A program made the position numbers and the translations under genes. Below the pieces are notes generated by a model. That model made no database searches. It saw only the letters and a list, made by a program, of their open reading frames with translations, and had not been told where the DNA came from. From the IMG/VR virus record IMGVR_UViG_3300021376_000227, positions 1-31,645 of that record: a stretch of 31,645 nucleotides of DNA; one strand, given 5' to 3'. The stretch is from a virus. This document shows, in pieces, positions 20,530-24,100 of the stretch; position 1 is the stretch's first letter; the number at the start of each line of letters is the position of its first letter.

Positions 20530-21186
20530 TTAACATTGAATTGCTGAAGAAGAAACAATAACACCATTTCCATCCAAATCCCAATTCTGTGTAGGAACAA
20601 ACGCATATATCTCTGTGACAGGAGACTGCAATGCTGCATCCCAACAAAGAACACAACCCGGAGCCAAGGTTGAGCAGTCAGAATAAAAAGTTTTTGGATT
20701 ATTATCTGCGTCACCGCACGCAGCACCTTCGTTTATGTTGCTAACTCCACTGCTTCCGAATGAATAAGATGGTGTACAAGTCTCGCATATACCTGTAACA
20801 GTAGCTACAGGGTTTCCTAATGTAACACTAACCTCAAGGTAATATCCTCCATAGGAAACAAAGTATGTGCCGGTAGAAGCTGCAGAGAATATAGCTCCTG
20901 ATAAAGTAGTACAGTTGCAGAACGTAGGGTCATCACCCGTTACAGTTCCCGAAACTAAAAAGTCACAGGCATCTTCTTCTGACGCATCAAAGCCTACCAA
21001 AAATTCGTTGTTACAAGATGGACACGAGACTTGAGGAAGCAGTGCTCCTGAAGATTGTTCACGTGAGATTACTCCGTCAGAGTAAAATCCATCAGCCGCA
21101 ACCGTTGTAAGGTTGGCATCGTCATAAATCACCGAAGCTGCGCTGAGCGATGGTCCGTCTAAATAATAAGTTCCTTGTGTTGCCAT
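20530..21186 (-). CDS. Cys-rich tail accessory protein, paralogue of the end of the 1573-aa protein
   Basis: Residues about 6-60 (YYLDGPSLSAAS, then LTTVAADGFYSDGVISREQ, SGALLPQVSCPSC) repeat the last complete module of the upstream 1573-aa protein (YYLGGGSTLASA, LTTQAPNGYYSQGGIVREQ, SGVLQAQQSCPGC). The rest is beta-rich, with CxxC and CxC pairs (CPSC, CNC, CETC) and about 14 cysteines in 218 residues, far above its neighbours. No signal peptide is present. A duplicated host-binding or tail-tip module is the simplest reading. The cysteines may bind metal or form disulfides in the finished particle. The gene starts 11 bases after the 1573-aa gene. Confidence 0.65.
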   Translation of the reverse strand: MATQGTYYLDGPSLSAASVIYDDANLTTVAADGFYSDGVISREQSSGALLPQVSCPSCNNEFLVGFDASEEDACDFLVSGTVTGDDPTFCNCTTLSGAIFSAASTGTYFVSYGGYYLEVSVTLGNPVATVTGICETCTPSYSFGSSGVSNINEGAACGDADNNPKTFYSDCSTLAPGCVLCWDAALQSPVTEIYAFVPTQNWDLDGNGVIVSSSAIQC

Positions 21187-21197
21187 TTTATTTTATT

Positions 21198-24100
21198 TTA
21201 TAGTAGTAAGCATCCGCAACAAGAGTCAAATGCACTTGTATCGGAATAACAAAGTGATACTTCAGTTCCGCATCCCGGACAAGATTGTTGCGCTTGCAAT
21301 ACTCCTGAGATTTGCTCACGAACAATACCACCCTGAGAGTAGTACCCGTTAGGAGCCTGTGTCGTAAGCGCTGCATCTATATAAATACTTACCGCAGAAG
21401 CAAGCGTGCTGCCACCACCTAAGTAGTAACCCTGAGAGGTTGGGCAGTCACAACAAGAATCTGATTCGTTTGTAGCTGCATAGCAGAGTACCGCATAGGC
21501 AGGTAAGCATCCGCAACAAGAGTCATTTCCGTCAATTCCTGAATAACACAATTCAAGAGGCAATGAGCTTCTGTAATCCCATATTAAATATAGGTATTGT
21601 CCGCTACTTGGTACAGTAAAACTTCCTGTATAATATCCTGCTGCTCCTGTAGGTGCAACAACTGTAGCTGCAGCAAGTAAGTTATTCATACCTACTTGTG
21701 TATTAGGATATAGCGTGTTGCTTCTTAAGTACCTGAATTTGTTTGTAGCCGGATTGAAATTAAATGTATCAAACCCTTCTTTGTTTGAAATCAATTGCAT
21801 TGTTGCTCCCGAAGGTGGAAATCCTCCCGTTCCTTGTGGTCCAATAATAATATTATACTGAGAGACAACAGGACTTTGAGCTGAAGAATCAAATGTAACA
21901 AGTGAAGATTGAAGAGGAGATATAAAAGCACCGCTCGTATATCTATATTCATTATGTATGAACTTTCCTGCATCAGGGTTACTTGTCAAACATACGTTTA
22001 CAATCCCAATCTCATTAATATCCACACAATTAACTACAACATTCACATTAACTGTATCTGTTGCAATAATTTGAACATTTAATTCATTAATACTATTACT
22101 GTTTTTATTTATTGTAAGTGTCCCCGAAGTGGTTACAGGTCCTGAAGAAACCACTACGATACCGTATGTTACAATAATCTCAAACTCTGCCGTAGACGAT
22201 GGGTCTACTGTATATACAATCAAGCAATCACCTACTGTCGTACTCTCAAACTCAACATCATAATCTCTGTTTGTTCCGGCTTCAATAGCAAAGTCTTGTT
22301 CAATACCACAACTGTAAATGATGGGAGGAATAGGGACAGTTCTGTCGTTTGTTGTAAGAACATACTCATTCATATACGGATCAAAACCTCCAAGCTTTTG
22401 AGTATTGAACGATTCTATAAAGTTATCTCTAAACCAAGTCCGCATCCCTTGCTCAGATACCACTCTTAGTTGGTCTGTGCTATACGAGTTTCCGATAAGC
22501 TGAAGCACAGCTCCACGTTTTACGTCAGTGAAGAATCTATAGTATCCCCATTGTACATAGCTTTCAGGATGGAAGCTGATGCCATACTTCTCTACACGTG
22601 CAATCTGAGTACCCAATACTTCAGGCACAGAGGTTATAGCACCACCGGCAGCGGCATCTGAGAGTAAGTTCTTACCTGCAAGTACGTATGAAATCTTGTC
22701 CTCTTGAAGAGTAAGCACATCAGTCTCACGTCCGTCTAATTTATAGATTGGACCAAAGGATACCTCTAAGTATTTATAGTTAAGAAGCCCTAAGTTAAAC
22801 TCATTAAGTTTATTAACATTTGACTCAAAGTTATACACACCGCTATAGGTGATGTCTGCAAAGCGTCTTACCTGTCTGTAATCCTGAGCCGATACTGACG
22901 TTACACGATTACCAAGGTTAAAGGTTTTACCGATAATTGAGTCACGAATCTTATAGCTCTCTGCACCATTACCAAAACAGAAACAGTTAAAGAACTCTGT
23001 ATCTACTATGGCAGGTACAGAAGATGTTTGGTTTTGTACGTTACCTAAGTGTCTTCCATTAGCATCAATACCAAAAGACAAATGATTTTCAAAGAACACG
23101 TCAGGAAGTGAATCAAGTGGCTGCGTCTCAAATATCAAAGTGGTCTCTGCCCTAAAAACTTCAATGTTTACAGTAACTGATGACCTACGCTTCTCTCTTG
23201 ACAAGACACCACCACAACGGAGAGTACCGCTTACAATTAAAATAAGTTTATTGCTGTTGGGGTCTCCTGAAACAGTAGGGTATCTATAGAATCTGTAATA
23301 GTTTGTGCATAGTGCAGTTGAGATGTCCGTATTGTTTGATGCAAGCGTTGGTATAAATTCATTTTCAATAGGACATTCATTGCCACCCACCTCCTGATCT
23401 CCATCATCGAGTATCTGCTCTACGTTATCTCCAACCCACCAATCTTGCATATTATCATAATTGGCAGAAGCGACAAGCGTTTTTTCTAAAGTATAAATAC
23501 GTCTTTCACAAGCACCATTACCTTGACCAACCCCAAGACGCTGAAACTTAAAACTCATCTTGATACGACTGCCTGCAGGAACGGTATAGTCCACCCACGC
23601 ATTTGTTGCAGTATCAAACCTGTTCATTGGGTAGTTCAAGATGGGATATTCTCCTGCATCATTTTGATCTACCTGCTGAGTGCCGGGAGCAATAATTGCA
23701 AGTTCGTCCTGAACAACTGCAAAACTGTTTGGATTAATCTTCATATATACCCCTGATGGCACAGGTATATTTACAGCAGGGTCAAGCTCACTTGGTATCT
23801 CAATAAATCCTGCCTGCTTGGCTTCTTTCTCAAGCACTGTTGCGTATACACAACTATTAGTTGGTCCACTCGTGTCAGCTTTAACAATAAGCCTATCTCC
23901 TTGCTGAACCTTGCGTGCGTTCTCTCCCTCAAGCAAAAAGTATGCGTTATTACTTTCAGGGTCATCAAAGAAGATACTGCTATATATGGTATCATAGCTT
24001 TCCTCGTCAGGCTTAATAACAAACTTATATCTTTTTGCCCAAGCAGGAGCTATCTGTGTTGTAGGTATCGTAACCCTTATAGAGTTCTTGGTATCAGATG

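Follow-up and report, generated by a model that had tools for sequence, protein, structure and literature searches.

Our analysis of the window, a 31,645-nucleotide stretch of viral DNA (positions 1 to 31,645 of IMG/VR record IMGVR_UViG_3300021376_000227), indicates that the cysteine-rich end of its large tail protein is probably part of a connector. Comparison with relatives suggests that the recurring cysteine unit found there, which we call A, is probably the docking tail that ends the N-terminal part of a split muzzle (tail-tip protein) in an aquatic crAss-like phage, and that it is stapled by disulfides to a second module, B, belonging to a swappable, hypervariable adhesin. An initial annotation made from the letters alone had described three units of the form CY-x-DSCC-x-C and a 23-bp repeat with copies 297 bp apart, and both are exactly as it described; it overlooked B, some 55 residues lying between the second and third units, and the copy of B that opens the next gene.

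The tail protein itself, P0001 (21198..25919, minus strand, 1573 aa), matches phrog_14478 over nearly its full length (E 4e-224), and its residues 1-1188 align piecewise to residues 1-1072 of gp097 of Cellulophaga phage phi38:1 and also to the Elemovirus muzzle. The whole of P0004 (19720..20526, minus strand) is likewise homologous to these muzzles, aligning to gp097 residues 1078-1323, and it carries the muzzle C-terminal family PF25729, crAss_MUZ_C (E 7e-15, 55.7 bits against a cut-off of 27). Homology identifies P0001 as the N-terminal part of a muzzle of the crAss-like type, which upholds the initial assignment to a tail protein; the initial placing of the cysteine units at its "tip" needs rewording, since what they end is one part of a split muzzle, the N-terminal one. 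Since gp097 matches both P0001 and P0004, and since crAss_MUZ_C and the remainder of the muzzle share one chain in phi38:1 and Elemovirus, the alignments indicate that the muzzle of the window's clade is split in two genes and that a 385-residue extension (1189-1573) has been added at the break. The C-terminal part has an ORF of its own in 157 loci, the window included, and is found inside the muzzle chain only in Elemovirus and phi38:1 (loci L085 and L086); we therefore class the window protein, on its gene structure, as a split muzzle and not as a standard one. In phage phi-crAss001 six copies of the muzzle assemble at the end of the tail (PMC10172136), and by homology the window muzzle would have the same virion position and oligomeric state. 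Muzzles of this kind are characterised by a hexameric ring with a gated beta-propeller and a crass fold. The likeness is that of large tail-end proteins of crAss-like phages, phi-crAss001 gp44 among them, and of crAss_MUZ_C in P0004; gp44 itself was not matched in our profile search. We found no credible PDB match for P0001, its tail, P0004, a 12-sequence muzzle profile or a B profile (P0001 residues 1228-1314 reached E 0.05 against a DUF3992 protein). Neither Pfam nor NCBIfam holds a family for P0001 or for the product of the next gene, P0002, and PHROGs holds none for P0002.

The extension begins with beta-rich domains running from residue 1189 to the conserved strand YLYLIWDYR at residues 1442-1450 (21570..22355, minus strand). 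After it comes the first A motif, A1 (CYSGIDGNDSCCGC, residues 1458-1471, 21507..21548), followed by an additional copy, A2 (CYAATNESDSCCDC, residues 1479-1492, 21444..21485), a B module that ends in SCPGC and was recognised by an HMM match (residues 1498-1550, 21270..21428), and the C-terminal motif A3 (CYSDTSAFDSCCGC, residues 1557-1570, 21210..21251), all on the minus strand. B is about 55 aa long and has the pattern YYL...GYYS...R.Q..GVL...CPGC; the second copy opens P0002, the putative adhesin (20530..21186, minus strand), in which B occupies 21013-21168 and is followed by a variable, cysteine-containing domain. Fourteen of the 30 cysteines of P0001 fall within its last 120 residues, and CCxC is absent upstream of residue 1400. 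The A units are not a product of chance, since two or more motifs arose in none of 100,000 shuffles of the P0001 tail. AlphaFold2 gave the extension a mean pLDDT of 89 (the input alignment left out the L068 muzzle tail and one phage-database row). The predicted domains are nearly all beta, with pLDDT mostly at least 95 (mostly 90-98 up to YLYLIWDYR); A1 is modelled as a bridge and a short helix bearing CC (about 85-90), B as short strands (84-94) and A3 as a helix (about 55-80), while A2 is mostly below 60.

The 23-bp direct repeat GTAAGCATCCGCAACAAGAGTCA is exact in its two copies, of which one (21206..21228) encodes the end of A3 and the other (21503..21525) the end of A1. The initial annotation took these copies to have been recently exchanged. 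The A1 and A3 cores do agree at 18 of 18 nucleotides, as against 12-13 of 18 in L007 and L008; however, L003 carries identical core codons in its own A1, and we regard recent exchange, by gene conversion or otherwise, as weakly supported.

How general is this arrangement? We collected 370 loci from IMG/VR and phage records, giving 211 distinct muzzles. Nearly all complete muzzles among them contain YLYLIWDYR followed by a C-x-CCxC motif, mostly at the extreme C-terminus, and in about 200 relatives one or more A motifs end the muzzle tail. With few exceptions, the next gene opens with B (55 aa, ending CPxC), continues into a hypervariable domain and is followed by the C-terminal part of the muzzle. 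Moreover, a B-only profile retrieved 80 loci, and A lies upstream in all 80. The order muzzle, B-adhesin, muzzle C-terminal part, small acetyltransferase-like gene is constant on all contigs long enough to show it, full fusions excepted. If lower-case letters denote modules in separate ORFs, the commonest layout (116 loci) is Ab, a single A ending the muzzle and a single B opening the next ORF; other layouts are ABAb (19 loci), AABAb (6), AAb and AAbba. The number of A motifs ranges from 1 to 5 and changes 18 times on the tree, so that the comparison of copy number that had been suggested at the outset shows it to be variable. We found neither A nor B at the muzzle loci of phi18:3, phi38:1 and Elemovirus. 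Among the phage records, the pair occurs only in MW202828, a metagenomic assembly. A single match to a bacterial or archaeal genome, in an Aenigmatarchaeota MAG (L371, CP070801.1 550884-562030), contains a muzzle tail, a B-adhesin and a muzzle C-terminal part; it is an N-bounded fragment, probably an assembly chimera, and we set it aside.

A few further features of these loci may be recorded. The acetyltransferase-like gene of the window (P0008, 19288-19698), right after the muzzle C-terminal part, is kept in most relatives and occurs also in Elemovirus, at 31% identity. The structural gene run of the window ends with a 2752-aa protein, P0007 (8330-16588). In L005, which otherwise resembles L003, the muzzle ORF has an in-frame stop after residue 1391, upstream of A, either a sequencing error or a real truncation. 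Five muzzles (L029, L036, L077, L080, L306) carry further cysteine modules past A, ending CGC or similar, with several repeats in L077 and L080.

The part of the adhesin beyond B behaves very differently from its surroundings. Within sister pairs, mean identity is 87% in the muzzle body, 85% in the C-terminal part and 78% in B, as against 55% in the distal domain, whose two versions are often unrelated. The distal domain falls to 40% between the window and L003, to 25% between L012 and L017, and to 40% between L115 and L221; in this last pair the body is 97% identical, B 98% and the C-terminal part 98%. We thus see a constant N-terminal module joined to a C-terminal domain that is swapped between near-identical phages, as in modular adhesins. 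In one relative the distal domain is Fib_succ_major. Swapping of this kind is typical of receptor-binding parts, and the distal domain presumably binds a receptor. The adhesins of L063 and L069 have long PV-rich repeats after B, possibly a stiff spacer.

The first line of evidence that A and B dock comes from natural fusions, because sequences that are fused in some species and separate in others usually cooperate. A, B and the variable domain form one chain in three clades, L072/L316/L318, L346/L349/L351/L352 and L171, which sit in three parts of the tree, and in these clades we found no separate adhesin gene ahead of the C-terminal part (in L316 that part lies beyond the contig end). Moreover, the B-A stretch, which in the window belongs to the muzzle, has an ORF to itself (83-88 aa) in L003 and L068. 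These free mini-proteins lie between muzzle and adhesin (L003:9485-9727; in L068 an 88-aa ORF from about 6843) and are possible adaptor links.

A second line of evidence comes from the cysteines. In all four loci where CCxC has become CFxC (L046, L054, L206, L375), B lacks the second cysteine of CPxC. A muzzle tree from which these columns were excluded counts L046/L054 as one event and L206 as a second; L375 is not in the tree. The co-loss is not simply the mark of one adhesin type, because the distal domain of L375 appears not to resemble the other three. Among 133 A-B pairs the overlap is 3 of 3, with a probability of 2.6e-5 if phylogeny is ignored. A DNA pattern for CFxC picked out six stretches, two of them by chance. 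In 12 loci of one clade an extra cysteine in A (SCQxFCYD) goes with an extra cysteine in B (YCFD), and in L354/L355 the first A has lost C1 and C4 together and retained CC. The joint number of cysteines in A and B is even in 127 of the 133 pairs, including 3+1 and 5+3 combinations in which each chain alone is odd; among the exceptions, L059 has an intact four-cysteine A and a B with CPSY, its second cysteine lost, and L045 counts as odd only because the contig end cuts its B module. Within B, a further cysteine pair (in LTxCA and at the G before VLL) has both members in 64 loci and otherwise neither, with 22 changes on the tree, the sole apparent single (L216) being an artefact of a shifted module start. 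In an unbiased MI scan of 1860 A by B column pairs, A28C-B56C ranked 6th; the inter-gene signal is 3.7 SD, not outstanding among other pairs, as against 11.6 SD for the pair within B. The evidence within B is thus strong, while that between genes comes from a few events, and transfer of muzzle end and adhesin as one cassette could reduce two of these to one. Paired gain and loss across chains, the sequence signature of a disulfide-bonded tail though not proof of one, is nevertheless present, in few independent inter-chain events. The simplest pairing compatible with these data would join C1 to C4 inside A, and CC of A to CPxC of B.

The covariation fits disulfides rather than metal, and bonding after release, one of the possibilities raised initially, appears to be the best reading of the paired losses and gains. 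Metal-binding tips of phage tails are known, and four-cysteine clusters with near-invariant cysteines resemble metal sites, so that A, alone with four cysteines or together with B with six, might be a zinc or iron-sulfur site that fixes the tail end structurally, as the initial annotation also considered. We think this unlikely. Cysteines are lost and gained in pairs across the two chains and within B, a poor fit to metal binding; C3 of A is lost on its own in the CFxC loci and CC outlives C1 and C4 in L354/L355, so the cysteines do not come and go as one ligand set; and P0001 and P0002 match no metal-site family in Pfam or NCBIfam. We give a similarly low probability to the idea that A and B are ordinary tandem fibre modules, spacers or receptor-binding repeats with intrachain disulfides only, which the next gene shares by descent and without docking. 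The alternation of A and B within one chain in the ABAb and AABAb phages, and the frequent gain and loss of extra copies, would suit such modules. But the commonest state is a single A and a single B in different genes, cysteine states agree across the gene boundary, and in the adhesin it is the part distal to B that is swapped, B itself being conserved.

Least probable of all, to the point of being hardly tenable, is that the cysteine repeats are themselves the host-range determinant and were recently exchanged, as first proposed. Their copy number does vary and the 23-bp repeat is exact; against this, the first A is nearly invariant across about 200 relatives, A1 of L003 has identical core codons, and swapping is seen in the next gene, in its C-terminal domain.

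How would a disulfide-stapled joint between A and B work? We suppose that A, at the C-terminus of the muzzle N-terminal part, acts as a plug that docks on B, a socket opening the next gene, and that disulfides staple the two once the virion is outside the reducing cytoplasm, that is, after lysis. One bond, C1-C4, would close A, and CC of A would bond to CPxC of B. Because this joint would remain constant, the adhesin domain could be exchanged. In the window, the additional A and the A2-B-A3 segment fused in the muzzle chain may, more speculatively, provide a longer arm or more docking sites, with A3, and perhaps also A1, receiving P0002. Some A units are left unexplained by one-to-one pairing, because tandem A motifs outnumber B in several phages, the window included. 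A broader scheme, which we advance tentatively and hold to be somewhat less probable than its opposite, is that an ancestral muzzle was split with an adhesin cassette between its halves, and that A and B serve as interchangeable covalent connectors, so that B-A adaptors or fused extenders could lengthen, branch or multiply the adhesins at the tail end.

Much of what surrounds this proposal is already known: crAss muzzles, modular adhesins and disulfide-bonded tails have all been described. In phi-crAss001, disulfides lend stability to the tail barrel and to the fibre hubs (PMC10172136). The muzzle there, gp44, is one chain, whereas in the window it is encoded by two genes that flank an adhesin gene, and it carries a clade-specific cysteine docking extension. 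Similarly phi38:1 gp097 and the Elemovirus muzzle are single chains without the A motif or B module. The closest parallel to the split is Cellulophaga phi18:3 (Pachyviridae), whose muzzle is divided between gp114 and gp115 as in the window, both proteins having MS/MS-based structural annotation; its extension, unlike that of the window, has a cadherin/Ig-like domain and neither A nor B. In phage Milano, according to the portion of the published account on which we draw, disulfides covalently link tail and baseplate subunits in the virion; its tail is contractile, and that portion describes no modules like A or B (PMC10811340). More generally, modular receptor-binding proteins combine an N-terminal dock that stays constant with a distal part that varies. 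The window shares with them the constant dock and the swapped distal domain; its joint differs in appearing to be a cysteine-paired plug and socket, whose partner is the muzzle C-terminus and is sometimes in the same chain. Neither the family libraries nor the literature yielded a split muzzle whose new C-terminus shares with the adhesin of the next gene a cysteine-paired connector open to duplication, release or fusion; as the literature was covered in part, its silence is a weak indication of novelty.

The crAss-like phages are the most abundant viruses of the human gut and have many aquatic relatives, and how they attach and exchange their receptor-binding parts is poorly known. Our results suggest that two short motifs in adjacent genes would predict which small proteins are adhesins, how these are held on the muzzle, and that reduction would release them. 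Because the modules have no match in Pfam, PHROGs, NCBIfam or PDB, A and B could flag many adhesin genes beside muzzles. If the joint is confirmed, the A-B pair could moreover be used as a genetically encoded, redox-controlled protein linker.
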